A stretch of 33,647 nucleotides of DNA. It comes from a virus. The notes beneath the pieces are model-generated. The model did no database searches, had not been told where the DNA came from, and was given only the letters and a program-made list of their open reading frames with translations. This document shows, piece by piece, positions 3,320 through 27,432 of the stretch. Location: positions 1-33,647 of IMG/VR virus record IMGVR_UViG_3300042522_001203; one strand, 5' to 3'. Position 1 is the stretch's first letter, and every line of letters begins with the position of its first letter. A program made the translations under genes and the position numbers.

Positions 3320-3335
3320 CTATTTAGCTTTCAAC
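3320..3335 (-). promoter_or_regulatory. late-promoter-like motif, copy 1
   Basis: GTTGAAAGC-TAA-ATAG on the minus strand, 43-58 bases upstream of the ATG of the 737-residue gene. A second ATAG follows closely. Confidence 0.55.
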
Positions 3336-3342
3336 GAGCCCT

Positions 3343-4164
3343 TTAGAATAGAGAAACTTGAGCGGTTCGGATTGTGACGGTTCCAGTCACCCCTACCGAA
3401 CGTCGAAACTGTAACGACACCATGTCAGTGCCAGCGACATTGATAATAACAGCTTGGAAATCGCCTAGCGGATTATCTGTGCTTCCGACCGCACCGTATT
3501 CGGTGTAGAATGTATCGGTACCGTTATGAGATAAGAGCAGTTCGGTTACAGAAACGGACCCGGTGCCGGTTAAAATTTCTACTATATATTTGCCACTTCG
3601 ATAGAGGGTCTTATCATACGATTCTAGTTCTACCCATCCGGATTCGCCCGAAGCGACAGTGGTTTTGAATACGCTGGTACGCAGGCCGGTACCTGTTTCG
3701 CTAACGAACCCGTACGAGCCAAATGTTATATTATCGGCCAACCGAACTTCCAACGATCCTACAGTATTGTCAACAAAAAACGAACCGGTATCTAACGCGT
3801 AGGACTGAGCGGTTCCGCTGGGGCTTCCGACAATGATCTCATTCGCTCCTAGAGCGGAATCCAGGATACCAGTGCTTTGCCACGAATCCGTCGATTCGTT
3901 ATAAACTCTAAGGACCGGTGTTAATCCGGATTTGTCGATCCACAATTCACCATCAGACAGATCAGTGTAGTTAACAGGGGTAGGAGGCGATACGCCAACA
4001 TGTGCCGGACCGACCTTACGGATTTTCCCTAGAGTATCCCGCAGATACACACCAACACTATTGGTATGGTAATTAACCGCTAACTCTCCATCCAATATTG
4101 AGGTTGATAGTGGGCGTTTTTCAAATACCGCGCTTCGAATATGGCGGTAGGAATCTCGTGACAT
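3343..4164 (-). CDS. virion structural protein, fibre-associated
   Basis: A 273-residue protein. The N-terminal part ('LDGELAVNYHT' followed by 'RKVGPAHVG' and 'DGELWIDKSG') resembles the N-terminal domain of cyanophage-type virion proteins in which short blocks introduce a product label and a 'sample' domain. The remainder is beta-strand-rich and ends in alternating hydrophobic residues. It begins 3 bases after the stop of the 239-residue gene, implying translational coupling in one operon. No enzymatic motif is visible. Probable tail fibre or baseplate accessory protein; the family assignment rests on memory of related proteins, not on a search. Confidence 0.65.
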   Translation of the reverse strand: MSRDSYRHIRSAVFEKRPLSTSILDGELAVNYHTNSVGVYLRDTLGKIRKVGPAHVGVSPPTPVNYTDLSDGELWIDKSGLTPVLRVYNESTDSWQSTGILDSALGANEIIVGSPSGTAQSYALDTGSFFVDNTVGSLEVRLADNITFGSYGFVSETGTGLRTSVFKTTVASGESGWVELESYDKTLYRSGKYIVEILTGTGSVSVTELLLSHNGTDTFYTEYGAVGSTDNPLGDFQAVIINVAGTDMVSLQFRRSVGVTGTVTIRTAQVSLF

Positions 4165-4166
4165 GA

Positions 4167-4886
4167 TTAGTATGTTCCCCCGTCTAGAGAGTAAAAGGGT
4201 ATGCCGTCAGGTCGTACGGCATCTTCAAAGAAATCAGCAACGTAGGATTGAAGTGTACTGTATGGGACTGCATCGGTACCAAGAACGGGTGCGGCAACAC
4301 CGGTAATCCGTTTACTGTTGAGATCGAGTGCGTAGTCACCATTGGATACCAGGCGACCAAGTGATAATTTGTTTTCAAAAACCACACCGCCCGAGTTGCT
4401 TACGTACCCGATCCGGTCATCGGTATTATCGCGCCATTCGGTAACAATAGGATTGACGCTTGAGCCACGAACCGTCAACGCGATGGCGTTATTGGAACCC
4501 GGGTTAATGGTATTTTGGGCTGTGGTGGTTGGTGTTCTGCGTAGCAGAGTGTTTGGATCAAGGTCGATACCAGCGATAAGAGCGTCGACCTGGGTTTTAG
4601 TATATGTACCGGCTAAAGTCGCATATGTCGCAGCGACACTAGCGTTAATGGTCGCTTGCAAACCTGCTAACGCCGTATTTAGCTGAGTGGTTGATACTTT
4701 TGAGCTTTGTAGGCCGGCTATTAATCCGGATAACGTCGCTAGCTCAGAGTCAATATACGCCCGCGTGTACGTCGTACTCGTATTCGCTTTAGAGTTTAAT
4801 AGACTATTTACTTCCGCTTTAGTATACTGGTCTAACACTCCACCAAGATTTGGCGTACAGGACTTCCCGTATTGATTAGTAGCCAT
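4167..4886 (-). CDS. coiled-coil tail fibre protein
   Basis: A 239-residue protein. Residues 20-110 contain heptad-like repeats with recurring 'YTKAEVNSLL', 'YTRAYIDSEL' and 'YTKTQVDALI' units. This is the trimeric alpha-helical stalk repeat typical of phage fibres, in which Y-T-K/R-x-x-[VI]-[DN] marks each turn. The C-terminal half is a small beta-rich region ('ITGVAAPVLGTDAV'), as in many fibre connector proteins. The start at 4886 overlaps the 3' end of the upstream gene by 11 bases. A GTTGAAAGC motif ends 19 bases upstream of the ATG, inside the end of that upstream gene. Confidence 0.75.
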   Translation of the reverse strand: MATNQYGKSCTPNLGGVLDQYTKAEVNSLLNSKANTSTTYTRAYIDSELATLSGLIAGLQSSKVSTTQLNTALAGLQATINASVAATYATLAGTYTKTQVDALIAGIDLDPNTLLRRTPTTTAQNTINPGSNNAIALTVRGSSVNPIVTEWRDNTDDRIGYVSNSGGVVFENKLSLGRLVSNGDYALDLNSKRITGVAAPVLGTDAVPYSTLQSYVADFFEDAVRPDGIPFYSLDGGTY

Positions 4887-5763
4887 TCGTTCTCGGTCCT
4901 ACCCCTATATCGCTTTCAACTGGCACGCAGACTAGATCGGTACCGTCGCTACCTAGATCGACAATGACACGTCCCGGTCCGCAGGATGTGGTTTTACCGC
5001 ATGTGCTTAGGTTACCGTTACGGATACAATACAGGCGGGAGAAGTAGGCGGAAGGGGGTGGGCCTGGTACGATTAGGCTGGGGGTCGCTGGCATATCAGA
5101 CGTGGCCACATACACACAAGTGTAGTCATCGCACCGAGTATTCCATAAAACTGTGTCTCCAGAACGATAGAAATACGTTTTCGCTATTTTCGCATCATCC
5201 CACTCATCCGAATTTGGTGTAGTTAAATCTACGTCCCATTCCGATTCAAAATCCGACCAGGCAGTTAAAAACGGCTTTGGGTTGTAAAAATCGTATTTAG
5301 ATAATAACGTTGTTACGTCAGGCAATCCAACGGGCTCGGAGACCGTTACCCGACATATTTCCGACCATTGAGCCGGATCGAACGCTCCAGCGGGTACTGG
5401 TACATTAACAATCGCTTCATAGACCACAACGGTTAAACCGTCGGATTCTAAGACAATTACTTTGTCTCCTATTCTGTACGCGTATTCATCCGTGTACGCG
5501 GCTACTTGCCAGCGCTCATCACTAATCGCGTCCTCGTGGTCCCATGGAACAGGGATATTACCCCACTCTGTATACACACCGCGTTCAGGATCGTACAACG
5601 GATACAGGTTTACTAATTCCCTTGCATCACGACCGCAAGTATTAAGTCCGGCTGCAGTGCAGCCGGTATTAGCTATACTATTTGTTGTTATCCCACGCGC
5701 GTTCACCGCCGCGAGCTGATCGGCGGTTAAATTACAGCCCGTAACGAACGAACGCGCGGCCAT
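4876..5763 (-). CDS. virion protein with two carbohydrate-binding-like modules
   Basis: A 295-residue protein. Two internal segments share the pattern Y-R-x-G-D-x-V followed by Y-x-A and a P-A/W ending. Segment one, about residues 90-150, includes 'YRIGDKVIV' and 'FDPAQW'. Segment two, about residues 190-235, includes 'YFYRSGDTVLW' and 'CVYVAT'. This resembles the small carbohydrate-binding or chitin-binding-like modules found on phage tails, which suggests contact with the host surface. The protein is cysteine-rich for a phage structural protein, with several near the N- and C-termini. The module assignment is by eye and needs a profile search. Confidence 0.6.
   Translation of the reverse strand: MAARSFVTGCNLTADQLAAVNARGITTNSIANTGCTAAGLNTCGRDARELVNLYPLYDPERGVYTEWGNIPVPWDHEDAISDERWQVAAYTDEYAYRIGDKVIVLESDGLTVVVYEAIVNVPVPAGAFDPAQWSEICRVTVSEPVGLPDVTTLLSKYDFYNPKPFLTAWSDFESEWDVDLTTPNSDEWDDAKIAKTYFYRSGDTVLWNTRCDDYTCVYVATSDMPATPSLIVPGPPPSAYFSRLYCIRNGNLSTCGKTTSCGPGRVIVDLGSDGTDLVCVPVESDIGVGPRTNGY
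4905..4920 (-). promoter_or_regulatory. late-promoter-like motif, copy 2
   Basis: GTTGAAAGC-GAT-ATAG, upstream of the coiled-coil fibre gene (ATG 4886). Confidence 0.6.
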
Positions 5764-5774
5764 GGGCCTTTAAC

Positions 5775-6206
5775 TTATAGATAAGTGTAGTAGTCGCCTA
5801 CGATCGTCGCTTCTAGCGTACTGGGGTTACCGCTAGTGCGGTCAACCTGGCCGAAGTTGATGCTAGACCATTGGCAGTTGAATACAATTAGTTCGCGACC
5901 GAGAGGTTGAGGATTTTCACCACAAGTAACCGGAGTCACAGTAGTCGTAAAGTACTGACAATTGTCCGTACCGTTCCAAATATCCACCAATGCTGCGTGG
6001 ATCTCGGGATCGAAGGGGGTGGACAGAGTCATCTCAGCTAGGGTTTTGGGGCCCCGGAGATTATAGATACGCTGCTGGGTGGCATGCGCGTACTGTGAGG
6101 TAGCGCTGGTATCACGAACGCCGGTGAAAGAGGTGAAGTAAAGATCAGGAGTTAGGCTCGTAAATACGAGAAACTGAGACTGAGTAATTGGACGGATGTT
6201 TAGCAT
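5775..6206 (-). CDS. probable tail tube protein
   Basis: A 143-residue protein, about the size of contractile-tail tube subunits. The central pattern fits the tube fold: 'YNLRGPKTLAEMTLSTPFD', then 'LVDIWNG', a short beta hairpin, 'CQWSSINFGQVDR' and 'LEATIVGDYY'. In that family a 'RGP ... LTLTRPYD ... W' stretch is followed by a 'VDRxGSxxAxLxI' stretch. The tube subunit would assemble into the inner channel of the contractile tail, inside the sheath. It is unusual that it lies about 12 kb from the sheath gene and on the opposite strand. A GTTGAAAGC motif lies 28-37 bases upstream. No search was possible, so this is a reasoned guess. Confidence 0.55.
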   Translation of the reverse strand: MLNIRPITQSQFLVFTSLTPDLYFTSFTGVRDTSATSQYAHATQQRIYNLRGPKTLAEMTLSTPFDPEIHAALVDIWNGTDNCQYFTTTVTPVTCGENPQPLGRELIVFNCQWSSINFGQVDRTSGNPSTLEATIVGDYYTYL

Positions 6207-6227: not shown

Positions 6228-6243
6228 CTACCTAGCTTTCAAC
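6228..6243 (-). promoter_or_regulatory. late-promoter-like motif, copy 3
   Basis: GTTGAAAGC-TAG-GTAG, upstream of the probable tail tube gene (ATG 6206). Confidence 0.6.
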
Positions 6244-6258: not shown

Positions 6259-8211
6259 TCACATGTAGTACGGTGCGAAGTCAGCCCAGTAGCCAAGGGA
6301 TTCCGGATCGATATTGACAAGTTCACGATGAACAAAACTTCGATTAAGACGATAGGCGGATGAGTAGAGTTTTACGAGATTTTCCACACTATCCGTATCA
6401 AGGTCGTCGCCACGTAGAACAATATTCTCAAAACGTGCCAGATCCATGCGAAGGGTATCATGCTGATACGGGATTTGTCTGGGTACGGATCGAATCTCAT
6501 CCAGCAGACGTTTAGTTACATAGATAATATCTCCGGGCGTGGTATACTCGTCGACATTGATCTTAGAGTTTTCGGAATCGGTAGACGATACGCCTGCGGA
6601 TAACCTGTCCCAGCCAACTTCATCCATTCCACCCTGATTAAACCGCTCAGCAATTTTTTTGGCGACTTTGTCTCGAGTCGTCTCATCCTTCAAGTCGCCA
6701 CTCTCGTCAAATTCGCTGAAGTCGAGGTTTTCGGCGGACAGGGGTGGAGGCGAAGACGACAACAGCTTTCCAATCACGCTTTCGCCAATTACCGGTCCGT
6801 TGGATTCACCGGCATTAGCGGTTTGGGGGTTACGACTATTTCTATGTTCGCCCATACCAGCGTCCGCACCCATCCCGCCCATCATTTCTTCCATCGAGAT
6901 TTTCTCAAGCGACGGAATCCTGAGTTTATCACGCACCCAGTCAAGATCGGTAACCTGGTAACCCACCGCTTGAAGCTGAGTAAGTATCTGAACCGTTTTG
7001 ATCGGATCTTCGCCACGCTGCTCGATATCGCTGAAATCGCGCGAGATTCTAGGTACCGACGAGCCCGGATAATTCAACTCCACGATCCACCGAATCAGTG
7101 TCGCGTTAATGGTTTCGTCGAGCTGATCAGAAAAACTCTTAGATTTTCGAATCCGTACCGAGTCGGCAATCTGGTCACGAGCGTAACTGCCAACCCCGGT
7201 ACCTTCTGCTCCTACCGTCGCTTCACCGTTAATTAGAAATGAGATCTGCTGGTCAATGTAGCTGATAAGGTTTTGGTATACGTCCGCCCTGGAGTCTGAT
7301 GTCAAATAGTCAATCGACATCTCGTCTGGTACGACAATCGCCGTCTCCTGACCTAGTCGTTGCAACGCGGTAAACAATGACTTTACCTCCTCTTCAGGGG
7401 TACCGAGGCTAAACTTACCTACCGCAGTCGGAGTAGTATGCTTGTCAGCGTATTGTAGCCAGAATGATAATAGCGTGCGGCGGAATTCTACCAGACTGTA
7501 AAGTTGTCGGCCTAGGCCAGTGCCATATGGGTCCGCAAGGTTATTGTACGCCCAGTGGCGATGAATAACCATTGAGCGGAGAGGGATAGGCATCCCTTCG
7601 ACCGGAGATTGAATTGTAATGATTCGGGGGCTGATTGAGCCATCTTCATTTAGGATGAACTGAAACCGCCTCGGATCGCGAATCTTGATCTCGCTGGGGA
7701 CAACGTAGCTTCCCTGTCTGATCCAGCAAATCTCACCCACACTCATGCCGAGAATCAACGATTCCGCCATGCCCTTAACGAATGCGTTAAACCCTGTATT
7801 CGAGCTGACTAGCATGTCCCGACCCCGACTCTGCCGAGTGTTCGTACCGAGGTGATAAAGAGTCTGACGGACAAATTCCGCCACTTCTTCGTCTTTATCC
7901 GAATCTGATGTGGGATAAACGTGCCATTCGCGCTGAATAATCTCTCCGACTAACTTTTCCCACGCCGAAATTACCGCGCTGTCGTTGAACAGTCGGGTAT
8001 ATTGTTCGATGGCACGGGGGCCGCCACCACCCTCCTCGATAAGAATGTCGTCACGGCGAGGAAGGATAGCACCGGTAAGGACAGTTGGGAGCCCGCCCCA
8101 TGTGTACGGATCACCTTTGTATCCACCCAGTGCGCCCTGGTTAACGCCGAGCGAATATAGTCGGTCGTTATAACCGGTTTTAACAACCCTTTTCGTCTCG
8201 GCGGACATCAA
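6259..8211 (-). CDS. portal protein, Mu gp29 / DUF935 type
   Basis: A 650-residue protein. The first 430 residues have the hallmarks of Mu gp29-like portals: 'IIQREWHVYP', 'IKIRDPRRFQF', 'YNNLADPYGTGLGRQLY', 'FWLQYADKHTTPTAVGKF', a 'VPDEMSIDYL' segment and 'ETINATLIRWIVELNYP'. The portal forms the dodecameric ring at the capsid vertex through which DNA is packaged and ejected. The C-terminal 200 residues are acidic and helix-rich, without a recognised domain; extra C-terminal domains are common in this family. The ATG at 8211 has an alternative ATG one codon later. A GTTGAAAGC motif 14-29 bases upstream lies within the end of the preceding gene. Confidence 0.88.
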   Translation of the reverse strand: MMSAETKRVVKTGYNDRLYSLGVNQGALGGYKGDPYTWGGLPTVLTGAILPRRDDILIEEGGGGPRAIEQYTRLFNDSAVISAWEKLVGEIIQREWHVYPTSDSDKDEEVAEFVRQTLYHLGTNTRQSRGRDMLVSSNTGFNAFVKGMAESLILGMSVGEICWIRQGSYVVPSEIKIRDPRRFQFILNEDGSISPRIITIQSPVEGMPIPLRSMVIHRHWAYNNLADPYGTGLGRQLYSLVEFRRTLLSFWLQYADKHTTPTAVGKFSLGTPEEEVKSLFTALQRLGQETAIVVPDEMSIDYLTSDSRADVYQNLISYIDQQISFLINGEATVGAEGTGVGSYARDQIADSVRIRKSKSFSDQLDETINATLIRWIVELNYPGSSVPRISRDFSDIEQRGEDPIKTVQILTQLQAVGYQVTDLDWVRDKLRIPSLEKISMEEMMGGMGADAGMGEHRNSRNPQTANAGESNGPVIGESVIGKLLSSSPPPLSAENLDFSEFDESGDLKDETTRDKVAKKIAERFNQGGMDEVGWDRLSAGVSSTDSENSKINVDEYTTPGDIIYVTKRLLDEIRSVPRQIPYQHDTLRMDLARFENIVLRGDDLDTDSVENLVKLYSSAYRLNRSFVHRELVNIDPESLGYWADFAPYYM

Positions 8212-8216: not shown

Positions 8217-8465
8217 CTACTTCTCTATTTCGCTTTCAACGGTTTTTTCGTCTGCCGAGCGGTAGACCACATCGAGATTGAGGATAGATTGATAAAGATC
8301 TTCACGGCTCATCTCGCCTCTTTCGTACATGTCAATTGTTTCCTCCGCTCCATCGACGTATACGCCATACGTGGTGTCGGTCAGGACGTTAATCCCACGC
8401 TGTCTTTCCAAGCTTTTTGCGCTATCCGCATCCTGGTTTCCATTTTTCTTAGTTCGTCTTGCCAT
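8217..8465 (-). CDS. small unknown protein upstream of portal
   Basis: An 82-residue protein with a basic N-terminus ('MARRTKKNG') and an acidic, helix-forming C-terminus ('EETIDMYERGEMSREDLYQ'). Its start lies 85 bases inside the end of the upstream 290-residue gene, in another frame. It ends 5 bases before the portal start. No motif suggests a function; the placement next to the portal is compatible with a head assembly or packaging accessory role. There is no clear ribosome site before 8465. Confidence 0.55.
   Translation of the reverse strand: MARRTKKNGNQDADSAKSLERQRGINVLTDTTYGVYVDGAEETIDMYERGEMSREDLYQSILNLDVVYRSADEKTVESEIEK
8225..8240 (-). promoter_or_regulatory. late-promoter-like motif, copy 4
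   Basis: GTTGAAAGC-GAA-ATAG, upstream of the portal gene (ATG 8211), inside the end of the preceding gene. Confidence 0.6.
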
Positions 8466-9703: not shown

Positions 9704-9737
9704 CTTTCACCGGAATTTCCGGTTGAAAGCAAGGTAG
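9704..9737. promoter_or_regulatory. divergent intergenic region with palindrome and motif
   Basis: The centre is the palindrome ACCGGAATTTCCGGT at 9709-9723. Its plus-strand right arm runs into a perfect GTTGAAAGC-AAG-GTAG motif (9722-9737) that points to the gene at 9760. Its left arm reads GTGAAAGGGTATGAG on the minus strand, a weaker version of the same motif that points to the gene starting at 9671. This arrangement suggests a back-to-back promoter pair, possibly with an operator. Promoter activity is inferred, not shown. Confidence 0.5.
9722..9737 (+). promoter_or_regulatory. late-promoter-like motif, copy 5
   Basis: GTTGAAAGC-AAG-GTAG, upstream of the 1070-residue gene (GTG 9760), joined to a palindrome. 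Confidence 0.6.
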
Positions 9738-12972: not shown

Positions 12973-13739
12973 CTCTTGAGTCGTACTGTAAATACACAGA
13001 GAACGCTCCGGTATTGGAGTTCGGCAACGGCCCGGAGTATTTTAACGGAACGAGGGACGGAGGGATCTATCGATCAAGAATTGAGAAGCAACTAACCGAC
13101 TCGTTACGGATTGTTGTTGAATACAAGAATGGCGTTCCGCATCCGATCGATACGTTTAAACTCACCAACCAGTCCGTGACTACGTGGGACGATTACTGGG
13201 TGGACACCAAAGATGGGCTTATAGTTGATCCAAAAATTCATCACATAAATTTGCAGAGAAATAGTCTTGTATATGTAAATATAAACACTCCGAGACTAGA
13301 GTTACGGACTTTAAATTTAGAAGGAAATAGGGAGCTAGTGCATTTGTATATACATGAGGCACCACTCCTTGAACGATTAAATATTACTGGCTGTACTAGT
13401 CTTAAGTACATATCACTCGGGATTAACCGCTCGGTTAGGGAGTTAATAGCCAAGGATTGTAGCATGAGTGGAGATACGCTTGAACAGTTGTTGCGGGACT
13501 TCACCCCTACCGTGTGTGCTAGTGCAAATACTGGCGGGATAGGAATGTTTCGTAAACAACATAGCACGGTGTTGGATCTTCGTGGTAACATCATCGACTG
13601 GTCGAATCCGCGTATCGCTAGTAAGATACGGTTGTTACTTACCAACAATTGGGTAGTGAAGTGGGATAATAATCCGCCAAGCAACATAGTGTCCCCTTCC
13701 CTCTACGGTTTTTACGTTGAAAGCGAGATAGAGATGTAA
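12969..13739 (+). CDS. leucine-rich-repeat-like protein
   Basis: A 256-residue protein. Residues 90-165 form about four imperfect leucine-rich repeats with L/I spaced every 2-3 positions and N at turns: 'INLQRNSLVYVNI', 'LRTLNLEGNRELVHLYI', 'LERLNITGCTSLKYISL'. LRRs usually bind other proteins, so a role in tail assembly or host contact is plausible. The start overlaps the previous stop as ATGA. It ends 10 bases before the fibre gene at 13750, and a GTTGAAAGC motif for that gene is embedded in its last codons. It shares the A/T-rich codon use of the 1070-residue gene. Confidence 0.65.
   Translation: MTLESYCKYTENAPVLEFGNGPEYFNGTRDGGIYRSRIEKQLTDSLRIVVEYKNGVPHPIDTFKLTNQSVTTWDDYWVDTKDGLIVDPKIHHINLQRNSLVYVNINTPRLELRTLNLEGNRELVHLYIHEAPLLERLNITGCTSLKYISLGINRSVRELIAKDCSMSGDTLEQLLRDFTPTVCASANTGGIGMFRKQHSTVLDLRGNIIDWSNPRIASKIRLLLTNNWVVKWDNNPPSNIVSPSLYGFYVESEIEM
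13716..13731 (+). promoter_or_regulatory. late-promoter-like motif, copy 6
   Basis: GTTGAAAGC-GAG-ATAG, upstream of the fibre gene at 13750, inside the end of the LRR-like gene. Confidence 0.6.
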
Positions 13740-15379: not shown

Positions 15380-15673
15380 TTAAATTTTTACAGATCGAGA
15401 TCGTCCACTTAGGCCTAGATGATTGGCGATGTCCCGTGTCATCCGATCAGCAAGTTTACGATCAGCGGGGCTAAGATCCGATATGGTATCAGTTTTATCT
15501 AATTCTTCTGCAACTACTACAGCCTCCGGTTCGAGGCTTAGGGACGAATTCTCCAGGGTATGGGTACTCTTGCAATCCGCCGTTATCTCTTGATGCTCCA
15601 GGTTGTCCGGCTTGCTGTCTTCTCGCCCACTCTCTCCATGCGGCGATTTGGGATTTACTGAACGAGTTGCCAT
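15380..15673 (-). CDS. unknown protein, shares its start region with another frame
   Basis: A 97-residue frame with an S/T/E-rich N-terminus and a helical C-terminus ('SPADRKLADRMTRDIANHLG'). It ends 4 bases before the next gene, which favours it as a real gene. Its ATG lies 7 bases downstream of the ATG of the 61-codon frame at 15680, and the two overlap for nearly the full length of the shorter one. Which of the two, or both, is translated cannot be decided by reading alone. Confidence 0.45.
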   Translation of the reverse strand: MATRSVNPKSPHGESGREDSKPDNLEHQEITADCKSTHTLENSSLSLEPEAVVVAEELDKTDTISDLSPADRKLADRMTRDIANHLGLSGRSRSVKI

Positions 15674-15701: not shown

Positions 15702-15717
15702 CTACTACGCTTTCAAC
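15702..15717 (-). promoter_or_regulatory. late-promoter-like motif, copy 7
   Basis: GTTGAAAGC-GTA-GTAG, upstream of the overlapping small frames starting at 15680 and 15673. Confidence 0.6.
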
Positions 15718-17240: not shown

Positions 17241-17256
17241 CTATCTAGCTTTCAAC
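17241..17256 (-). promoter_or_regulatory. late-promoter-like motif, copy 8
   Basis: GTTGAAAGC-TAG-ATAG, upstream of the small virion protein gene (ATG 17220). Confidence 0.6.
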
Positions 17257-17595
17257 TGTTCCTTCACAACCTGGAATGTTCCGACCGTCTGTATCCTTCT
17301 CAAGCAAGTTGCTGCTGACTGGGCTCTGAACTACATATTCCGTCGTTTCTGTCCATTGCTGCCAACCCCATACATCTTCATTACATGTGCCATGGGGAAT
17401 TTGTGCCTGAGAATCCGCCCCTCCCGCACGTACATTTCTTTCTGGCCCCGGATTCACCCTGTTGCTTCGCAACAAATACTCCGATTGCCGCATCATTTGT
17501 CGAGTCAACGCGCTAGCCTGAGTCTCCCGACTGCGGTAGTCAGAATTTTCCCGTTCATCCTCCCAGTGCCGGTACGGATTTGATTGTACGGCCAT
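17245..17595 (-). CDS. unknown small protein
   Basis: A 116-residue hydrophilic protein, with a charged helical N-terminus ('HWEDERENSDYRSRETQ') followed by a P/G/Q-rich, probably disordered region. No family recognised. It starts 20 bases downstream of a perfect motif at 17615-17630, which is back-to-back with the region upstream of the tail chaperone gene. It sits between the chaperone and the adhesin cluster; a virion or assembly role is possible but unproven. Confidence 0.6.
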   Translation of the reverse strand: MAVQSNPYRHWEDERENSDYRSRETQASALTRQMMRQSEYLLRSNRVNPGPERNVRAGGADSQAQIPHGTCNEDVWGWQQWTETTEYVVQSPVSSNLLEKDTDGRNIPGCEGTVES

Positions 17596-17614: not shown

Positions 17615-17630
17615 CTATCCCGCTTTCAAC
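17615..17630 (-). promoter_or_regulatory. late-promoter-like motif, copy 9
   Basis: GTTGAAAGC-GGG-ATAG, upstream of the 116-residue gene (ATG 17595). A degenerate plus-strand GTTGAGCG at 17639 points to the chaperone gene, making a second back-to-back pair. Confidence 0.6.
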
Positions 17631-17687
17631 TTTTGACAGTTGAGCGAAAAATCGGTGAATAGGACTATATGCTCACCTCAGACTATT

Positions 17688-18062
17688 ATGGCATTATCGT
17701 CTAAATCGCTACGGGAACTTGAAGTTACCGCTGCCGACGCTTCATCGGATTTTGACTTTGGCGATCCGGAAGTCATCGCGGTTGAAGTAGCACCTGGCAA
17801 GTTCCTGTCACTTCAAGAACCCAGCGCGGAAGATTTGATTGAGATCACAAAAATTTCTGCAGACAAATCGTTGGACGAAGTTCAAGCGACCCTAAAAACC
17901 ATCTGCATTCTGCATAGTCCGGACCCAGGCGGACGCAAACTCACTCTTAAAGATGCGAAACGCCTCCGCGCGAAACAGATCAAGTTACTCGGTAACGCGA
18001 TTAACGAATTGCTGGGCGGGGGTGACGATGATGAAGACATGAAAAGCGAAGAGGACGGTTGA
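17688..18062 (+). CDS. tail assembly chaperone-like protein, upstream frame
   Basis: A 124-residue protein from ATG 17688. An upstream in-frame TTG at 17640 would add 16 residues, but it coincides with a degenerate promoter-like motif. The core 'VAPGKFLSLQEPSAEDLIEI', 'LHSPDPGGRKLTLKDAKRL' and 'RAKQIKLLGNAINELLGG' resembles the helical N-terminal part of phage tail assembly chaperones of the gpE/gpG type. It ends in an acidic tail. The following frame has no start codon for 285 bases, suggesting a frameshift fusion, as many chaperone genes make. It precedes the sheath gene. Confidence 0.65.
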   Translation: MALSSKSLRELEVTAADASSDFDFGDPEVIAVEVAPGKFLSLQEPSAEDLIEITKISADKSLDEVQATLKTICILHSPDPGGRKLTLKDAKRLRAKQIKLLGNAINELLGGGDDDEDMKSEEDG

Positions 18063-18783: not shown

Positions 18784-18802
18784 GTTGAAAGCTATGTGAT
18801 AG
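18784..18802 (+). promoter_or_regulatory. late-promoter-like motif, copy 10
   Basis: GTTGAAAGC followed by ATAG after 6 rather than 3 bases, upstream of the sheath gene (TTG 18827). Confidence 0.5.
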
Positions 18803-18826: not shown

Positions 18827-21649
18827 TTGGCAACTTCGATCACAGTGAACGCCGCAGCACTGAATCGACCCGGCGTGTTTGTCGCCCAGTCGGTTACGGG
18901 CGGCCTGCCACAGCCCATCGCCAGCCATGCTGTAGGCTATTTGTTCGGTACGACTCCGGCCGATGAATATTACGGCACCGGCAGCGAGGGTATTTATTCA
19001 GAATTTCTTCCATACACCCCGACTCAAGTAGCCTCAGTAGAGGACTACCTGCTAAAGGTTGGTGGTACGTTGCCCACTGGTAGTGTCGGCGCACTGACCA
19101 CCTACGATGCGGTAAAAGGGTTTTTCGATAACGTTGGTGTTAACGGAATTCTCTACTTTACCCGTGTAACCCCAACCCCTGAAACGGTAATTAATCTCAG
19201 CGCTAGCAGTGCTGGAGCCGGTTATAACGCTTTCGCGATTAAGGTTAACGGTCGGTATTTTGGTACTCCGATCAATGTTCTCGATCCGGATGGTGACGAG
19301 ATTCGGGTCATTACGACTACCGGTATCGATGCGATTGATAACGCACGCGACCTGTTTGTATATCTATCCGGGGCTAATTCTGACGGTTTCTCTGATTTCT
19401 ATAAAGTCGAGCAAACTGCGACCGAAGCGACTCAAGGTAAGTTCAGAGTATTTGCGCGTGACAACACCAATCTGCCCGAAATCGATCGGTTTGTTGCCTA
19501 TAGCTTCACCGATACTGGTTACGCTAGCCCGTTAAATTTAGATACCGAAGCCGTAGTTAAACTATACACCTCGGTAAAGGAGATTAACTTCCGCTGCAAT
19601 AGTAGGGAGATCGCAACTGGTCAGGGCATCCTGTATATCGAAGGTTCTTTGCTAAGCTTGTTTATCGCTGCGGCGAATACGGCGACCCCTGGTACCTACG
19701 ATCCAGCAACCGAGCAATCTGATATCCTAAAAGATTATCTCGCTAGCAAGAGTATTACTGTTGTCGACGATAAGATCGTTGCAGTAAGCAAAGACTTTAG
19801 CTCTGGCGTAGCTTCAGGCAATAAATGGACCGATGCCAGTGCAGCATACTGGCGCTACGACCTAGGAACTACTACGTTCGCGAAGCTAGTCTCTGGTTCT
19901 GACGCTATTGTTCCTACCGGCACAGTTTCCGTAAGTGGTGGCGTAGCTACCCGAACCGGCTACCTTCCTGACTCCGTCCAGGTATTTTATGTTTCTGTTG
20001 CTGGTGAAAACCGTGCGATTATTGTTAACGGTGCGACACCAGACGAACTTGCCACTGCGCTTCGTGACGAACTTATTAGTATTCTGAACGAAAAAGAACT
20101 TGATCAGTACTACACCGTAGAAGCGGTAACAACCGGGTCTAACTACAGCGGTACAAACTACGCACCGAATAACGGCCATAAGGTTATTAACAACCTCGTA
20201 TCTTCCCACGGCGCGCCGTATATTCGTCCGGACCTAGAGGATATCGCACTTACCGGCACTGTCGCAATTAGCTCTGGTACAGTAACAGGCACAAACACCC
20301 TGTTTACTCAAGAACTTGGTGCGGGAGATGTGATCGTTGTTAACGGTACTCGGTTCACGGTAACTGCGGTTACCACTAATACCGCCGCTACTGTTACCCC
20401 CAATAACGTTACGGTGACTGCTGGTGCGACTGCGAGACTAGACAAATCTTACGCGAACGGTTTTGAATCTTTCGATTATGTTCTTAAGATTCGGATCACT
20501 GCGAAAAACGGTCTGGTAAGCCCAGTTCTTCCTGGTACAAATCGTCAGGGTCTTACCGACAGCAATGTTGTCAAGCTAACCTCAATTCAGGAGAATGTTG
20601 GCTATGAGACCTACAAACTCACCTCCGCTGCTAAAGCCCAAGATTTCGTTTACGCGATTGAAAAGGGTATGAGCGACGAGTATTACGCCCCTGGCTTCCT
20701 AATGGCACCAGAAGCGTATGCGACGCTCAAGTATAGCGCTGATTCCGATCTCGCCTCCCGCAGCGAAGCGATTGGTGAAAGACTTAAAGTGACTCAGACT
20801 CTTGTCGCTGCGGCTGAAGGCCGGTTTGGCGTCACTGAAGGTATCAGCAACACCCAGCACGTTGCCCTAATCGATTGTGGTGGTGATGTAGACAACCTGT
20901 CTCAAGCACAAGACGAACTCGACACCATCAAACGAACTGTTGGCTCGTTCTACGGTCACGCAGCGTTCTACGCTCCGTACCTCAAAAACCTCAACGACCG
21001 CTTTGTTCCCGCTAGCCCGTTTGTGGCCGGTGCGGCCTGTAGCCGATTCATTAATGAGGGCTTCCAGCAACCTCCAGCCGGCGCAAGGTATCCGCTACGT
21101 GGTGTGGTCGATCTGAAGTTCAAGATCACCGCACAACAGCAAGAGGTAACTTACGCTCTCGGACTCAACCCGATCCGGTCTCTGCCTAACCGTGGAATCG
21201 TTGTATGGGGTGCACGTACCCTGTCCAGCAGCCCGCTATTCCGGTTTGTCAATACTCGCGTCATTCTTAACGTCCTTATCGACGTCATGAACCGCAGCTT
21301 CGACGATATTCTCTTCGAGTCTATCGATTCTGCCGGTACTGTGTATAGTCGAGTTAAGTCAGTTGCGAACCAGGTGCTGAACCAGTTCTTCCTGCAAGGT
21401 GCGTTGTTTGGTGGTAGACCAGAACAGGCATATCTGGTTATCTGTGGTAACAGTAACAATAGCGCTGCACTACTCGAGCAGGGTACTGTCCGTATGGATG
21501 CGTATGTGGCTACTTCACCCACCCTTGAGCGTCTTGCGATTACCATTGTCCGCACTCCGGTCGGTCAGGTATCCCTGCTGAGCGATAGCTTTAGCAGAAA
21601 TGAAGAACGGTTTACCGCTCTTCTCGATGCTACTAATCTTAACGTTTGA
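18827..21649 (+). CDS. contractile tail sheath protein, unusually large
   Basis: A 940-residue protein starting at TTG 18827, with a good AGGAGAG ribosome site at 18813-18819. The N-terminus 'NRPGVFVAQSV' and the C-terminal block 'LNPIRSLPNRGIVVWGARTL', 'FRFVNTRVILNVLIDVMNRS', 'QGALFGGRPEQAYLVICGNS' and 'VRTPVGQ' are the conserved sheath core that polymerises around the tube and contracts. Most sheaths have about 400-660 residues. Here the extra length comes from inserted beta domains in the middle. One of them (about 476-538) matches a segment of the capsid cement protein. The protein makes this phage a myovirus. Confidence 0.95.
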   Translation: MATSITVNAAALNRPGVFVAQSVTGGLPQPIASHAVGYLFGTTPADEYYGTGSEGIYSEFLPYTPTQVASVEDYLLKVGGTLPTGSVGALTTYDAVKGFFDNVGVNGILYFTRVTPTPETVINLSASSAGAGYNAFAIKVNGRYFGTPINVLDPDGDEIRVITTTGIDAIDNARDLFVYLSGANSDGFSDFYKVEQTATEATQGKFRVFARDNTNLPEIDRFVAYSFTDTGYASPLNLDTEAVVKLYTSVKEINFRCNSREIATGQGILYIEGSLLSLFIAAANTATPGTYDPATEQSDILKDYLASKSITVVDDKIVAVSKDFSSGVASGNKWTDASAAYWRYDLGTTTFAKLVSGSDAIVPTGTVSVSGGVATRTGYLPDSVQVFYVSVAGENRAIIVNGATPDELATALRDELISILNEKELDQYYTVEAVTTGSNYSGTNYAPNNGHKVINNLVSSHGAPYIRPDLEDIALTGTVAISSGTVTGTNTLFTQELGAGDVIVVNGTRFTVTAVTTNTAATVTPNNVTVTAGATARLDKSYANGFESFDYVLKIRITAKNGLVSPVLPGTNRQGLTDSNVVKLTSIQENVGYETYKLTSAAKAQDFVYAIEKGMSDEYYAPGFLMAPEAYATLKYSADSDLASRSEAIGERLKVTQTLVAAAEGRFGVTEGISNTQHVALIDCGGDVDNLSQAQDELDTIKRTVGSFYGHAAFYAPYLKNLNDRFVPASPFVAGAACSRFINEGFQQPPAGARYPLRGVVDLKFKITAQQQEVTYALGLNPIRSLPNRGIVVWGARTLSSSPLFRFVNTRVILNVLIDVMNRSFDDILFESIDSAGTVYSRVKSVANQVLNQFFLQGALFGGRPEQAYLVICGNSNNSAALLEQGTVRMDAYVATSPTLERLAITIVRTPVGQVSLLSDSFSRNEERFTALLDATNLNV

Positions 21650-21650: not shown

Positions 21651-21662
21651 GTTGAAAGATAG
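21651..21662 (+). promoter_or_regulatory. late-promoter-like motif, copy 11 (atypical)
   Basis: GTTGAAAG directly followed by ATAG, only 2 bases before the protease/scaffold ATG at 21665. The short distance does not suit a promoter for this start, so it may serve as a ribosome site or be a decayed copy. Confidence 0.35.
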
Positions 21663-21664
21663 AT

Positions 21665-23284
21665 ATGGCAAGAAGACTTCGTGCAGAAATTAAGCCCGGA
21701 CCTACCACGGATCCGGTTCTTAACGCCGATACTCCCCTGACCGAACAACAACCGAAACGTACGGTTTATATCGAACTGTTTCGTTCCGGCCCTCAGATTA
21801 GTTCTAGTGGCCAAAAAATGGTGTTTGCGGATGAGGACTTGGATCAAGTGGTTAGTGGATACAATCCTACTACCCACGAGGCCCCTCTTATCATCGGTCA
21901 TGATCAGGATGACGGTACACCTGCTCTTGGGTGGGTGCGCGAAGTTTGGCGCAAAGGTAAATCGCTCTGGGGTAAGGTTGAGCTTACCCCAAGAGCTGAG
22001 CGCCTTATCCGTGACGGCGTATTTAAGAAGGTAAGTAGCTCGTTTTATTTGCCTGATGCCGATACGAATCCGACCCCCGGCCAGTTAGCCCTGCGCCATC
22101 TTGGCCTGGTGTCGATCCCTGCGGTAAAAGGTCTCACCGCCTTTGCCGAAAATCACCCCGAAGGCTCGATCACAATTACTCCAAGGGAGTCTTCTATTTC
22201 ATTTGAGGAAACTTTACCCACTATGGCTAAAAGAAAAACTGAAGCCCCCGTTCAAGAGACAAAAATTGTCGATCATGCTGACGGCCGGGGCATGACCATT
22301 AATGTAAATATTAATGGTATGAAAGCAACAGACGAAGAAGGTGAAATGCTCCAGGAAACTGGTGCTGCCGCTCCATACGACATGGAGTACGCAGACGATA
22401 TGGACATGGATCCGAACCGTGATATGGCCACCCCAAGACCCATGGTCGATGAAGGCATGGGAGGTATGAGTGCAACCACGTCAATGGTTGAAGGTCCGGA
22501 CGGTAAGGAAATGGGCGATGAGGATGGCGGCGACGCTGCACCCGTTGGCCCTGATGGTGCTGGTCCGGATGGTACAGAAGGTGAAACCGGTGGTGGTGGC
22601 GATGATATGGGCTCTGATGCCGATGTCGAAGACGTTTCTGGTTCTGATGACGAGAAAGTCGCCGCCGACCTTGCTTCTCAATATACCGAAGAGCAGCTCA
22701 TCATGGCGTTGTATCAACTAGCCCAAGGATCCCAAGAAATGGGCGAGCGTGGGATGATGGGTTATTCGGAGTCCGAGGATTTTGAAAATGTAGTCCAAAC
22801 TGAAACTGAAGCCTCTTTTGCAGAAGCACAATCTCCCGACCCACTTTCCATCAAAGTAGCCGAGCTCGAGGAGGAGCTTGCCGCTCAACGTCGCCTCATG
22901 CGACAGAAAGAGATCACTGACTTCTGTGAAAAACTTTATGGTGACGGTAAGCTTACCGAGAAAGTCGCGCCGATCTCCGACCTGGTACGGTTCATGGAAA
23001 CGCTTAATGCGAAAAATTCTGTAAACTTTAGCGAGACCGGTAAAGCATCACAGTTCGACTTCATGAAGAACGTGTTGACTAATCTCCCCGCGATGGTAAG
23101 TTTTAGCGAAGTTGCGACTCAGGTGTCTGCACCGAAGAAGACTAAGTCTCCGCGTCCTAACGCTGACGGCTATGTTTATGATGAGCGGAATGCTGAAATT
23201 CACGCTAAAGCGATTGAATACTCAGAACAGAATGGTACCGACTATATGTCGGCTCTCAAGCTCGTTCTAAACGACGAGCTCTGA
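21665..23284 (+). CDS. prohead protease with fused scaffold, Mu gpI-like
   Basis: A 539-residue protein. Residues 1-170 show the Mu gpI protease pattern: 'APLIIGHDQDDGTPALGWV' with the G-H pair, 'SLWGKVELTPRAERLI', 'FKKVSSSFYLP' and 'GLVSIPAVKGL'. Residues 190-360 are very acidic and rich in G, D, M and E, as expected of a removable scaffold. Residues 380-539 are helical. It would cleave scaffold and capsid during head maturation. A possible internal start at ATG 22223 (residue 187) could release the scaffold part alone. The motif copy at 21651 is unusually close to the ATG. Confidence 0.85.
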   Translation: MARRLRAEIKPGPTTDPVLNADTPLTEQQPKRTVYIELFRSGPQISSSGQKMVFADEDLDQVVSGYNPTTHEAPLIIGHDQDDGTPALGWVREVWRKGKSLWGKVELTPRAERLIRDGVFKKVSSSFYLPDADTNPTPGQLALRHLGLVSIPAVKGLTAFAENHPEGSITITPRESSISFEETLPTMAKRKTEAPVQETKIVDHADGRGMTINVNINGMKATDEEGEMLQETGAAAPYDMEYADDMDMDPNRDMATPRPMVDEGMGGMSATTSMVEGPDGKEMGDEDGGDAAPVGPDGAGPDGTEGETGGGGDDMGSDADVEDVSGSDDEKVAADLASQYTEEQLIMALYQLAQGSQEMGERGMMGYSESEDFENVVQTETEASFAEAQSPDPLSIKVAELEEELAAQRRLMRQKEITDFCEKLYGDGKLTEKVAPISDLVRFMETLNAKNSVNFSETGKASQFDFMKNVLTNLPAMVSFSEVATQVSAPKKTKSPRPNADGYVYDERNAEIHAKAIEYSEQNGTDYMSALKLVLNDEL

Positions 23285-25287: not shown

Positions 25288-25303
25288 GTTGAAAGCTCTA
25301 TAG
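25288..25303 (+). promoter_or_regulatory. late-promoter-like motif, copy 12
   Basis: GTTGAAAGC-TCT-ATAG, right after the capsid terminator and 11 bases before the DUF1320-type gene (ATG 25315). Confidence 0.6.
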
Positions 25304-25314
25304 AAGTAGTAAGC

Positions 25315-26106
25315 ATGGCCCCATACACCCCGCCTCCCGACGCATACGGTGTCGCTAACAACTGTACACCGGCCACGGCAGATTATTTCATTGAAGTCTT
25401 TGGCTTTAACGAAGCACTGGAGCTGTCCCGCCTCGAAGATCCGACCGCAAATACTATAAATTACCAGCGTATTAACGTTGCTCTTAACGACGCGGCTCAA
25501 CTTATAAATAACTACATCGAAACTGCCCCGCCGCAGGGAAAACTACTCATCGCAGGGTCGTACCGCAGGACTCAGGCCATACTCGCTCGCTGGTACCTCG
25601 ACACCCTCCGCCCTCGGCAACAGGTCGTAGACGCCGCAGAAGCCGCCCTCAAGCAGCTCGATCTATGGGCTGCTAAAGCCTCCCCGTCGTCCGGTATCAA
25701 GTGGCAGGAGGCCTACAGATACTGGGGTAGCGCATGTGCGATGACGATGTCGAACACCCAACGCGACCGCGCATTTACCGATGCGTCGCTGGCAAGGTGG
25801 GAAATGCGGTGGGGTACCAATAACCGCTGGAATCCGTACAAGAGAAAAGGTGCGCCGGTTATTGATAACGTAACGCAGCGAGAGCCGAGCGGGTCATTGG
25901 ATCGGCAGAATGTTACGTTGATTGGCGATAGCACGTTGGAAATGAATCAATTGTTCGATAGCTTGGAGACTACCCGCGACGTTGCTAGTTTCGCTGACAC
26001 CCAAAACGCGGCCACACCGGTTGAAGGCGATGTGCTTGTTGTTGAAAACACTGATGGCGACATCACAACTTACGATGGCGGCCTGCAGGAGGCCGACACA
26101 TTCTGA
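25315..26106 (+). CDS. neck / head-tail connector protein, DUF1320 (Mu gp36) type
   Basis: A 263-residue protein. The helical core 'RINVALNDAAQLINNYIE', 'RRTQAILARWYLDTLRPRQQ' and 'VDAAEAALKQLDLWA' fits the DUF1320 family, which acts at the portal-to-tail junction. A G/D-rich C-terminal extension follows ('VEGDVLVVENTDGDITTYDG'), of the type seen at the ends of small virion proteins. It is the first gene of a new unit with a motif at 25288-25303, just after the capsid terminator. Confidence 0.75.
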   Translation: MAPYTPPPDAYGVANNCTPATADYFIEVFGFNEALELSRLEDPTANTINYQRINVALNDAAQLINNYIETAPPQGKLLIAGSYRRTQAILARWYLDTLRPRQQVVDAAEAALKQLDLWAAKASPSSGIKWQEAYRYWGSACAMTMSNTQRDRAFTDASLARWEMRWGTNNRWNPYKRKGAPVIDNVTQREPSGSLDRQNVTLIGDSTLEMNQLFDSLETTRDVASFADTQNAATPVEGDVLVVENTDGDITTYDGGLQEADTF

Positions 26107-26159
26107 TGCTGATGCATCGTTACAAATAGTTTCTACCAACCGTTTAACACTTTACCGTT

Positions 26160-26519
26160 ATGTGGACATCTGACGAAAACCAGGTTTATGGCTACGATCC
26201 TTTAATTCCAGGGATGCCTGGGGGATCAAGCATGATCACAATCATTCCAAATGCCGGGAGTACGAGTTGTGGCTACAATACCAGCGGGTTGCAAGGGTTA
26301 ACGCATTCCAGTTTCGGTGTGTTTCCAGACAGTACACCTTACAAACAGACCGCTAGTGAGTTGCGGCAGTACATTATCAACCTTGAGGCTACTAGGAAAT
26401 TACGCGACCTTGCCGATGTTAATTTTCAACGCTCTCCGCAGCCCGGGGATGTCCTCGCTTATAACTATACTACCGGACTCTGGGAGCTACTGGATTTTGT
26501 TTCCGGTGGCGAATTCTGA
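26160..26519 (+). CDS. small virion protein
   Basis: A 119-residue protein from ATG 26160. A later ATG at 26232 ('MITIIPNAG') is also possible. The end 'LRDLADVNFQRSPQPGDVLA' followed by 'YNYTTGLWELLDF' is a well-known phage structural motif: L-x-D-V-x-F...P-x-x-G-x-x-L-x-Y-N...W. It probably decorates the tail or neck. It ends convergently, overlapping the deaminase gene by 33 bases. Confidence 0.6.
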   Translation: MWTSDENQVYGYDPLIPGMPGGSSMITIIPNAGSTSCGYNTSGLQGLTHSSFGVFPDSTPYKQTASELRQYIINLEATRKLRDLADVNFQRSPQPGDVLAYNYTTGLWELLDFVSGGEF

Positions 26520-26885
26520 CCACGTACCGCTATCGGTTGAGTAGTAAACGTGCTTGATGCCGGATTCGGAAATGGCGAGTTGGCATACGGGGCACGGACG
26601 AGCGAGGCACAAGTCCCCCTGTCGATTTACTCTACCGACAACTAAAGTATCGCAAGTAGCCGCTTTAGGGTTCAATAGCGCCCGTAACTCGGCGTGTAAC
26701 GACACACGATACGGTTGACCAACACGATCCGCAAGCCTAGATTGCATCGGGTGAGTCTTACCAAACACATTCGTGGAACGTATAACAATTCGTCCTTTAC
26801 GAAGCAAGACACAGGCTACGCGCCACCGGGAGTCAGTAGCTAGTGCCATCGACACGATAGTTTTTTCAACTTTGTCGCTTACCAC
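26487..26885 (-). CDS. cytidine/dCMP deaminase-like protein
   Basis: A 132-residue protein from GTG 26885. The zinc site of the cytidine deaminase fold is complete: H64-A65-E66 ('SLHAELRALL') and P97-C98-P-V-C101 ('RPCPVCQLAI'), with E66 as proton shuttle. The size and fold fit a nucleotide or nucleoside deaminase, which could supply dUMP/dTMP precursors or edit. The substrate cannot be told from sequence. It is the last gene of a four-gene minus-strand cassette and overlaps the stop of the 55-residue gene by a few bases. Confidence 0.8.
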   Translation of the reverse strand: MVSDKVEKTIVSMALATDSRWRVACVLLRKGRIVIRSTNVFGKTHPMQSRLADRVGQPYRVSLHAELRALLNPKAATCDTLVVGRVNRQGDLCLARPCPVCQLAISESGIKHVYYSTDSGTWSEFATGNKIQ

Positions 26886-27046
26886 CTGACGAACAAGTTC
26901 CGAACCATTTGCTTGAGGCGACTGAGTTTGCGTTGATGCTTTTCAGCTTTTCTGATAACTTTTTGCGCTTCGCTACGTGTCGTAGCTGTTTCCGCTTGCA
27001 TCATGCGTTGGATGAGACGGTGTGTGTGGTGTTTGACGTCCTTCAT
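26879..27046 (-). CDS. small basic protein
   Basis: A 55-residue protein from ATG 27046 to TAA 26879, found by reading the minus strand. Its start overlaps the stop of the upstream 73-residue gene as ATGA, and its stop overlaps the GTG of the deaminase. It is highly basic and helical ('KAEKHQRKLSRLKQMVRNL'), so it may bind nucleic acid. Function unknown; the coupling on both sides argues that it is real. Confidence 0.65.
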   Translation of the reverse strand: MKDVKHHTHRLIQRMMQAETATTRSEAQKVIRKAEKHQRKLSRLKQMVRNLFVRW

Positions 27047-27264
27047 TCAATGATCCCCGCGAACCTCATGCAAATCTCGCCCCACTCCAACACGTCACGA
27101 TCGCGAAAATAGGTGGAAATTGGCACTTCTCTGTCAAGAACGCGTTCACCTGTGTCGACATGTTCCATGCGTAAGTAGCCGTAGGTGTCTGCCTGCGCAA
27201 GCACATAACAATGATAGATGCCATCTAGGTTATTCTCCCAGACGATTTGAGGTTCGTGAGCCAT
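27043..27264 (-). CDS. unknown small protein
   Basis: A 73-residue protein with aromatic and acidic residues ('WENNLDGIYHCYVLAQADTY', 'EVPISTYFRDRDVLEWGE'), probably a small beta/helix fold. The stop overlaps the next start (ATGA), and its start overlaps the end of the membrane-protein gene by 35 bases. No recognised family. Confidence 0.6.
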   Translation of the reverse strand: MAHEPQIVWENNLDGIYHCYVLAQADTYGYLRMEHVDTGERVLDREVPISTYFRDRDVLEWGEICMRFAGIIE

Positions 27265-27412
27265 GGCAAGAGGTTTCGTTGTTTCCGGATCTGCATCCTA
27301 ACAGTGCTTTCAACAGAAACGCAGCCATTAGGGTACCGAGGGCGAACGCGGCCATGAAATTTAAGGTTAAAAGGATGGTGGTAAGGACATAGGCTAGTAC
27401 GCTAGCGTCCAT
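27230..27412 (-). CDS. small membrane protein
   Basis: A 60-residue protein. Residues 5-38 are strongly hydrophobic ('AYVLTTILLTLNFMAAFALG', then 'TLMAAFLLKALLG'), enough for one long or two short membrane segments. A polar C-terminal tail with two cysteines follows. It is the first gene of the minus-strand cassette and starts back-to-back with the plus-strand motif at 27417. Possible roles include a holin or a superinfection factor, with no direct evidence. Confidence 0.55.
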   Translation of the reverse strand: MDASVLAYVLTTILLTLNFMAAFALGTLMAAFLLKALLGCRSGNNETSCHGSRTSNRLGE

Positions 27413-27416
27413 AAGC

Positions 27417-27432
27417 GTTGAAAGCTATAAAG
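27417..27432 (+). promoter_or_regulatory. late-promoter-like motif, copy 13
   Basis: GTTGAAAGC-TAT-AAAG (second box differs), upstream of the tail terminator-like gene (ATG 27458). Confidence 0.5.

Follow-up and report, generated by a model that had tools for sequence, protein, structure and literature searches.

What reads a short two-part DNA sequence that stands before one structural gene after another, on both strands of a phage genome? The question is raised by a stretch of 33,647 bases, virus record IMGVR_UViG_3300042522_001203 (hereafter the window), whose genes mark it as a fragment of the genome of a TIM5-like cyanomyovirus. The tail sheath (18827-21649) shares 53% identity with its counterpart in cyanophage S-TIM5, and further genes have matches among portal, head protease, major head and tail proteins. 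A sequence-only reading of the window had listed thirteen copies of a motif, GTTGAAAGC-N3-RTAG in full and GTTGAAAG in its core, and had proposed a late promoter specific to the phage, perhaps served by a phage RNA polymerase or by a sigma-like factor. We find that the motif in the window is real, strongly non-random and conserved. We consider it likely that its copies, those at 21651 and 1871 excepted, are cores of late promoters read by the host RNA polymerase together with a phage sigma-70-family factor.

The motif is non-random in the window

All thirteen listed copies were recovered at their positions and on their strands. Ten match GTTGAAAGC-N3-RTAG exactly, where base composition predicts approximately 0.002 matches, and the claim that ten copies share a spacing of exactly three bases was thus borne out; the three copies said to deviate also do so, that at 27417 by one mismatch and those at 18784 and 21651 by two each. 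The reversed pattern, used as a control, had no match in the window with up to one mismatch. The core occurs 15 times, and the best of the other arrangements of its letters (560 arrangements in all) reaches 6. Fourteen of the 15 exact cores precede a same-strand gene start by 14-58 nucleotides (nt); counted from the motif's first base, the listed start codons lie 27-58 nt away, with the sole exception of the copy at 21651 (14 nt). Two exact cores, at 27314 and 1871 (both on the minus strand), had been overlooked. A Markov model predicts approximately 1.5 cores per window, which places the cores at 1871 and 21651 at chance level. With a position weight matrix trained on five other contigs, 14 window sites score at least 16; the null expectation is 0.6 sites at a score of at least 12, yet one simulated sequence scored 22. 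The polymerase block (28900-33647) contains no exact core and none stands before the start of the dps-like gene, as had been observed.

Conservation and divergence of the motif in relatives

The motif was counted, as the sequence-only reading had suggested, across the complete S-TIM5 genome and its relatives, where it is conserved, with a diverged version in S-TIM5. S-TIM5 is marine and is, by record, the sole complete genome among the TIM5-like records searched. Five relative contigs were fetched whole (G001, 127 kilobases (kb); G002; G003; G010, 123 kb; G011, 119 kb), and a scan for the sheath yielded 39 loci, 33 from close relatives (73-100% identity in the best segment) and six from remote ones (L042-L047); S-TIM54, S-TIM61 and S-TIM66 lie outside the survey. 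Stretches around the sheath contain a bipartite match in 27 of the 33 close relatives and in none of the six remote ones. With up to one mismatch, the pattern is present in all ten records searched, S-TIM5 having only one match, and the reversed control matched once across the same ten records, in G006.

Word counts lead to the same sequences. The core GTTGAAAG, or the same word shifted by one base (TTGAAAGC), is the top 8-mer in G001, G002, G010 and G011; in G003 the overlapping word TGAAAGCT ranks top and GTTGAAAG third. The top 8-mer of S-TIM5 is a one-letter variant, GTTTAAAG, with 36 copies against 11 expected, and the diverged motif there has the form GTTTAAAG-N6-TAGA. Its TAG lies most often at position 15 (8 of 36 copies, with three each at 14 and 16), compared with position 14 in the relatives. 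A logo of 72 GTTGAAAGC sites, in which the left box is fixed by how the sites were selected, reads GTTGAAAGC-nn-W-R-T-A-G-R-A-R, with no other conservation between -29 and +50.

Conservation extends to individual genes. Motif-led genes, that is, window genes with an exact core, were compared with others at orthologous starts placed by partial alignments. A core with up to one mismatch was found between -75 and -20 at 12 of 14 motif-led starts versus none of 18 others in G001, at 11 of 13 versus 2 of 17 in G010, at 8 of 10 versus none of 17 in G011 and at 5 of 11 versus 1 of 16 in S-TIM5. When position is ignored, the tallies are 12/14 versus 0/18 in G001, 11/13 versus 3/17 in G010 and 8/10 versus 3/17 in G011. 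Two of the S-TIM5 misses, the sheath and gp140, carry the motif at the annotated start. The portal gene is also preceded by an exact core in S-TIM5, G001 and G011, whereas in G010 it has only a weak core with one mismatch and no right box; the core before the head-tail adaptor gene is kept in G001, G010, G011 and S-TIM5. The window open reading frame (ORF) 17640-18062 (+) has no core with up to one mismatch upstream, but the motif is present at the annotated start (49544) of the corresponding S-TIM5 gene.

The motif in relation to virion genes and unit starts

In S-TIM5, 28 of the 36 GTTTAAAG copies sit 15-120 nt before an annotated gene on the same strand; the runner-up among the 560 arrangements of the letters has 9 copies before genes and is a one-base shift of GTTTAAAG itself. 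The motif in this complete genome is biased to virion genes: it precedes 18 of 47 virion or packaging genes versus 10 of 165 others (Fisher P 2e-7), the classes being those of the record's annotation. That the motif-led genes are expressed late would follow from their functions.

The motif is also concentrated where a unit of genes begins. Among 63 genes of the S-TIM5 structural block, a core with up to one mismatch lies 20-60 nt upstream of 9 of 10 genes at a strand switch, 12 of 20 genes whose upstream gap is 26 nt or more and 4 of 33 genes with a smaller one (P 3e-6), a comparison in which small gaps are slightly disfavoured because the motif must then fall in coding DNA. Restricting the count to exact cores leaves 8, 8 and 1, respectively. 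Across seven sequences, ten pairs of motifs stand head to head within 40 base pairs (bp) of each other, at distances of 2-25 bp; all seven sequences except the window contain such pairs, and there are no tail-to-tail, convergent ones. T-tracts lie directly upstream of 19 of 94 motif-led genes versus 3-7% of random positions. Since a terminator test (T-tract plus hairpin) was passed upstream of the motif in only 6 of the 94, we use the T-tract excess alone. Taken together, the bias to virion genes and unit starts in S-TIM5 and the conservation at orthologous starts support well the earlier proposal of a late promoter specific to the phage.

A phage sigma factor in relatives that carry the motif

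The suggestion that a sigma-like factor is encoded outside the window is supported in relatives: a phage sigma gene is present in S-TIM5 and G001, whereas the window and eight other fragments gave no match. In S-TIM5 the gene product, gp108, carries a sigma-factor annotation (the GenBank deposit names it 'SigF'), and one thioredoxin-like gene separates its gene from the terminase. The G001 protein (239 amino acids) is 41% identical to gp108 and looks to be encoded in an S-TIM5-like gene order. These two are the long records that were reached through the sheath, and both have the sigma gene; for G010 and G011, which were themselves found by way of the sigma, its presence carries no weight as evidence. 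A scan with the G001 sigma protein found 29 loci. The motif, with up to one mismatch, is present in 26 of the 28 sigma-found records other than G001 (the two without it are 7 and 11 kb long) versus none of the six remotely related phage records, and the reversed control gave a single match in the 28, in G020.

Sixteen of the 29 sigmas were aligned, the others being mostly near-duplicates. Every one of the 16 has a Pfam Sigma70_r2 match at an E-value of up to 0.1 (the best being 6e-10), with the S-TIM5 protein slightly below the cut-off of 24 at 23.7 bits, and all match PHROG sigma families. A profile of the family found sigma factors weakly in the PDB (best E 0.0026). The structural model (mean predicted local distance difference test (pLDDT) score 71, predicted template modelling (pTM) score 0.32) has helices at residues 16-91, 99-144 and 166-229 and predicted domains resembling sigma regions 2, 3 and 4. 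Foldseek and VIA-align match its region 2 to SigB, sigma-28, sigma-S and primary sigmas (8b3z, Z 10.0, root-mean-square deviation (rmsd) 2.3, 73 aligned). Whole-chain matches have rmsd values mostly above 20 Å, so that the arrangement of the domains is not supported. Pfam region 4 has no match in the 16 aligned sigmas; the C-terminal domain folded alone (pLDDT 87) gives weak matches, mostly to sigma region 4 (Z 6.6, rmsd 3.1, 67 aligned; Foldseek E 0.6). A winged helix-turn-helix (HTH) family is weakly matched by six of the 16, and the S-TIM5 match, at residues 102-127 in region 3, is below the Pfam cut-off. Region 2 is similar between S-TIM5 and the other sigmas, and the presumed region 3 helix differs. 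At the level of a correlation between two lineages only, this pattern seems to fit a constant right box and an altered left box.

Geometry of the motif and the predicted transcription start

The sequence-only reading had excluded a sigma70 promoter layout, and this judgement stands. Instead of canonical hexamers 16-18 bp apart, the two boxes lie 3-4 bp apart, no other box is conserved between -29 and +50, and the start codons are too close. Measured from the start of the motif, the first usable start codon of 168 of 187 sites lies at 26-50 nt in 133 cases, beyond 50 nt in 24 and at 12-17 nt in 11, with none at 18-25 nt. The start was chosen by a simple rule, and antisense controls often also have an ORF start (19 of 36 in S-TIM5); the presence of a start is therefore weak evidence, and we use the distance pattern alone. 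A shared N-terminus, MAPYTPPPD in the window, makes it certain where the head-tail adaptor gene begins; its start codon lies 27 nt from the motif start in the window and 37, 37, 33 and 32 nt away in four other genomes. With a distance as short as 27 nt, transcription must begin no later than about position 27. Taking T14 of the right box as the -12 base would put the start near position 26, at the lower edge of the observed start distances.

Among the motif-led genes of the window and six relatives, 9 of 94 are preceded by a strict Shine-Dalgarno word, compared with 8 of 26 unit-internal genes; the latter are from S-TIM5 only and the former from seven sequences, an unmatched comparison, and the contrast is at most suggestive. 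Late genes are mostly without such words, and their leaders would be a few bases long.

A proposed mechanism

The case that follows is built from features legible in the sequences, namely the motif, its placement and orientation, its conservation, its bias to late genes and unit starts, and the co-occurrence of a sigma gene in relatives. Early in infection, the host RNA polymerase would transcribe the replication block, which in the window is without an exact core. Newly made sigma, presumably encoded by the window phage as well, would then join the core polymerase and open the late promoters. The host polymerase with a sigma of the S-TIM5 gp108 ('SigF') type would read one compact element of approximately 19 bp. 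Sigma region 2 would bind the right box of this element, RTAGAA, as the -10. The left box, GTTGAAAGC (GTTTAAAG in S-TIM5), lying one helical turn further upstream, would stand in for a -35 box and be read, probably, by the predicted HTH region 3 or else by the sigma's C-terminal domain. Transcription would begin near motif position 26, a few bases before the start codon, and the late mRNAs would have very short leaders, mostly without a Shine-Dalgarno sequence. The S-TIM5 sigma gene may itself be under an upstream motif, which would make positive feedback possible; it is a minus-strand gene that follows gp100-gp107, and the first exact motif upstream of it is at 122790.

We hold more tentatively, and with the chances against it, the combined claim that this is a new sigma-70-family promoter geometry (a 9-bp box one helical turn above the -10 element, probably read through region 3 and replacing the -35 box), that the late mRNAs are almost leaderless, and that the left box has co-evolved with the sigma between S-TIM5 (GTTTAAAG) and its relatives (GTTGAAAGC).

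Several observations weigh against recognition by a phage sigma at late promoters. In S-TIM5, 29 of the 47 virion genes lack an exact core of their own (many are inside units), 10 non-virion genes have one upstream, 8 of the 36 exact cores do not precede a gene, the motif is missing from one strand-switch start (104638), and the orthologue comparison loses its contrast when position is ignored (5/11 versus 6/16). The right box does not have the final T that is conserved in a classical -10 element, position 19 being mostly a purine, and a region-4-like C-terminal domain is predicted, yet there is no conserved -35-like element. The sigma gene was matched in 2 of 11 records and is not seen in the window or the eight other fragments (17-39 kb). 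Phages that bear the sigma share descent, and the co-occurrence of gene and motif is not independent evidence of recognition. Within 7-12.6 kb around the sigma, a bipartite match is present at only 12 of 29 loci (27 of 33 around the sheath). Finally, Cr-LKS4, a phage with a distantly related sigma (30% identity over 58% of the query), shows no comparable motif upstream of 54 of the 59 features in its first 50 kb, the first 100 of its 101 kb having been fetched.

Alternative explanations

Of the other explanations, an activator-assisted promoter survives best, although we regard it as unlikely. Here a separate phage protein bound to the left box would recruit polymerase carrying a sigma from host or phage to the right box, a weak -10-like element. 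The left box is indeed the strongest and is long (8-9 bp) beside a degenerate right box, with the caveat that it was fixed by site selection; the constant spacing of about one helical turn would suit two proteins side by side; and S-TIM5 retains the left box with a looser right box. However, no candidate activator is known, no search for one having been made, and the predicted HTH region 3 of the phage sigma makes a second protein needless. In the middle promoters of T4, which depend on MotA and AsiA, the activator box lies approximately 12 bp above the -10 element, unlike the gap of 3-4 bp here.

A promoter for a phage single-subunit RNA polymerase of the T7/SP6 kind, contiguous over approximately 19 bp and with a purine-rich start after RTAG, is very improbable. 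The SP6 promoter contains TATAGAAG, which the compact motif with its RTAGAAG ending resembles, and such an enzyme would be expected to give comfortable leaders of 10-20 nt. Against this, the Pfam domain of the T7-type enzyme (PF00940) has no match in S-TIM5, G001, G010 or G011, in a search where the T7 and Syn5 controls were positive, and none in 11 TIM5-like records, in a run that had no positive control. An unfiltered T7/Syn5 profile search of S-TIM5, G001 and the window, again with positive controls, found nothing better than E 1.6. With no T7-type enzyme found in the complete S-TIM5 genome, the phage RNA polymerase that the sequence-only reading had offered as a reader is not supported. 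As for a multi-subunit or YonO-like enzyme, two checks that together make a weak test left no candidate: a Pfam search of nine large S-TIM5 proteins found no polymerase, and a scan of ORFs of at least 100 amino acids for D-x-DGD matched five S-TIM5 ORFs (three large ones with fibre or structural annotation and two of approximately 115 amino acids) and the G001 sheath.

Equally hard to credit is a signal at the RNA level, a translation enhancer or processing site in the 5' leader, which the sequence-only reading had kept as its alternative in the form of a translational role. Closeness to start codons and the rarity of strict Shine-Dalgarno words at motif-led genes would suit it. A translational role fits poorly with the variable distance to the start codon, mostly 26-50 nt with a tail beyond, and with head-to-head pairs down to 2 bp apart; the ten pairs leave scant space for separate upstream promoters. 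The motif is moreover found at unit starts and not at every gene, and T-tracts are in excess directly upstream of it. Least credible of all is an ordinary host sigma promoter with the left box as -35 and an unrecognised -10 box 16-18 bp away, since, although GTTGAA or GTTTAA could pass as a -35 hexamer, positions 20-50 hold no conserved box and a start near position 36 would lie past many start codons, such as that of the head-tail adaptor gene (27 nt).

Individual copies and neighbouring genes in the window

On the minus strand, the copy at 3320..3335 lies 58 nt before ORF 1064-3277 (phage structural/tail protein), that at 4905..4920 lies 34 nt before ORF 4167-4886, that at 6228..6243 lies 37 nt before ORF 5775-6206 and that at 8225..8240 precedes the portal gene (6259-8211). 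Further minus-strand copies are at 15702..15717 (44 nt before ORF 15380-15673), 17241..17256 (36 nt before ORF 16816-17220), 17615..17630 (35 nt before ORF 17245-17595) and 27299..27314 (50 nt before ORF 27043-27264), the last, with the right box GTTA, being one of the two missed earlier. Plus-strand copies stand at 9722..9737 (38 nt before ORF 9760-12972), 13716..13731 (34 nt before ORF 13750-15039) and 25288..25303 (27 nt before the head-tail adaptor gene, 25315-26106). Two more plus-strand copies differ in the right box: 18784..18799, 43 nt before the tail sheath gene (18827-21649), and 27417..27432, with AAAG, 41 nt before ORF 27458-28405. The earlier label of structural genes applies to several of these, which have structural PHROG matches; others, such as ORFs 5775-6206, 16816-17220 and 17245-17595, have no such match, and the S-TIM5 orthologues of the first (gp135) and the last (gp146) are annotated virion proteins.

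The core at 21651..21666 (+) overlaps the start codon of the head maturation protease gene, and the orthologous place in S-TIM5, G001, G010 and G011 is without an exact core; it is probably not a promoter. This copy, too close to its start and named earlier as the main counter-evidence, is at chance level. The lone core at 1864..1871 (-), which has no right box and lies inside ORF 1064-3277, is probably a chance occurrence.

Among neighbouring genes, a gamma-type (mitochondrial-like) DNA polymerase (29731-32472) is 59% identical to its S-TIM5 counterpart, and there are matches to a dCMP deaminase (26487-26885, -), a Dps-like DNA-binding protein (28443-28856, +) and a NinI-like phosphatase (32494-33174, -). 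No tRNA was found in the window by ARAGORN, and an Rfam search of the window gave no match.

A look at the frequencies of six words gave two further observations. The palindrome CCGCGG is absent from the window (8.5 expected), and its found and expected counts are 0/17.2 in G001, 0/6.8 in G002, 2/12.5 in G003, 0/19.8 in G010, 0/7.8 in G011 and 6/11.6 in S-TIM5; this scarcity suggests avoidance of a host restriction site. Words of the form RTCCGGAY are over-represented in the window (ATCCGGAT, 7 versus 1.4 expected; GTCCGGAC, 4 versus 0.6), less so in relatives, and lie at 3636, 3924, 4724, 10061, 15205, 17917, 19284, 20226, 22494, 22563, 32653 and 33563; TCCGGA is strongly avoided in S-TIM5 (5 versus 32 expected).

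Comparison with known systems

Late promoters that depend on a phage sigma are a known kind. Those proposed here are new in sequence, in lineage and in the gap of 3-4 bp as far as the literature surveyed shows, which contains no description of the motif, of S-TIM5 promoters or of TIM5-like late transcription and does not include the founding S-TIM5 paper. TIM5-like cyanophages form a separate myovirus lineage, and the motif provides a testable map of late genes for S-TIM5 and many uncultured relatives, tied to one candidate regulator. The related sigmas and their promoters make a natural pair for finding which residues read which bases. If the proposed geometry is true, the range of sigma-70-family promoter forms is wider. 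The motif could also be put to use in a small orthogonal promoter/sigma pair for laboratory cyanobacteria.

The T4 late promoter consensus is TATAAATA; the TIM5-like motif differs from it, in agreement with the earlier remark that the motif does not match a T4 late promoter, and has an added left box. A gp45-type clamp (PF09116) was not found in four TIM5-like records, the T4 control being positive, which makes a T4-style coupling to replication unlikely. T7 and SP6 promoters are similarly compact and contiguous with a purine start, but no gene for a single-subunit polymerase was found in the TIM5-like records searched. According to PMC2988020, T4 late promoters use the sigma gp55, with gp33 and gp45, and the likeness to the system proposed here lies in a phage sigma, the lack of a -35 element and the late virion genes served.

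Ma-LMM01 is likewise a cyanomyovirus with temporal gene classes, and has, according to PMC5780444, SigA-like promoters and no gp55-type sigma; the TIM5-like motif, by contrast, is not SigA-like, and relatives of the window phage carry a phage sigma. The closest parallels appear to be phiEco32 and phage 7-11, where, according to PMC8948821, a phage sigma-70-family factor turns the host polymerase to late genes and transcription starts a few bp from the element, as we propose here. The same paper gives a single element, tAATGTAtA, for the gp36 promoters of phiEco32 and two elements with a 16-bp gap, GTAAtg-16-aCTA, for the gp47 promoters of 7-11, and ties the absence of a -35 element in phiEco32 to the absence of region 4. 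The TIM5-like motif is unrelated to these in sequence and has its boxes 3-4 bp apart, and unlike the phiEco32 sigma as described there, the TIM5-like sigma combines a region 2 recognizable by sequence with no more than a weak structural likeness to region 4.

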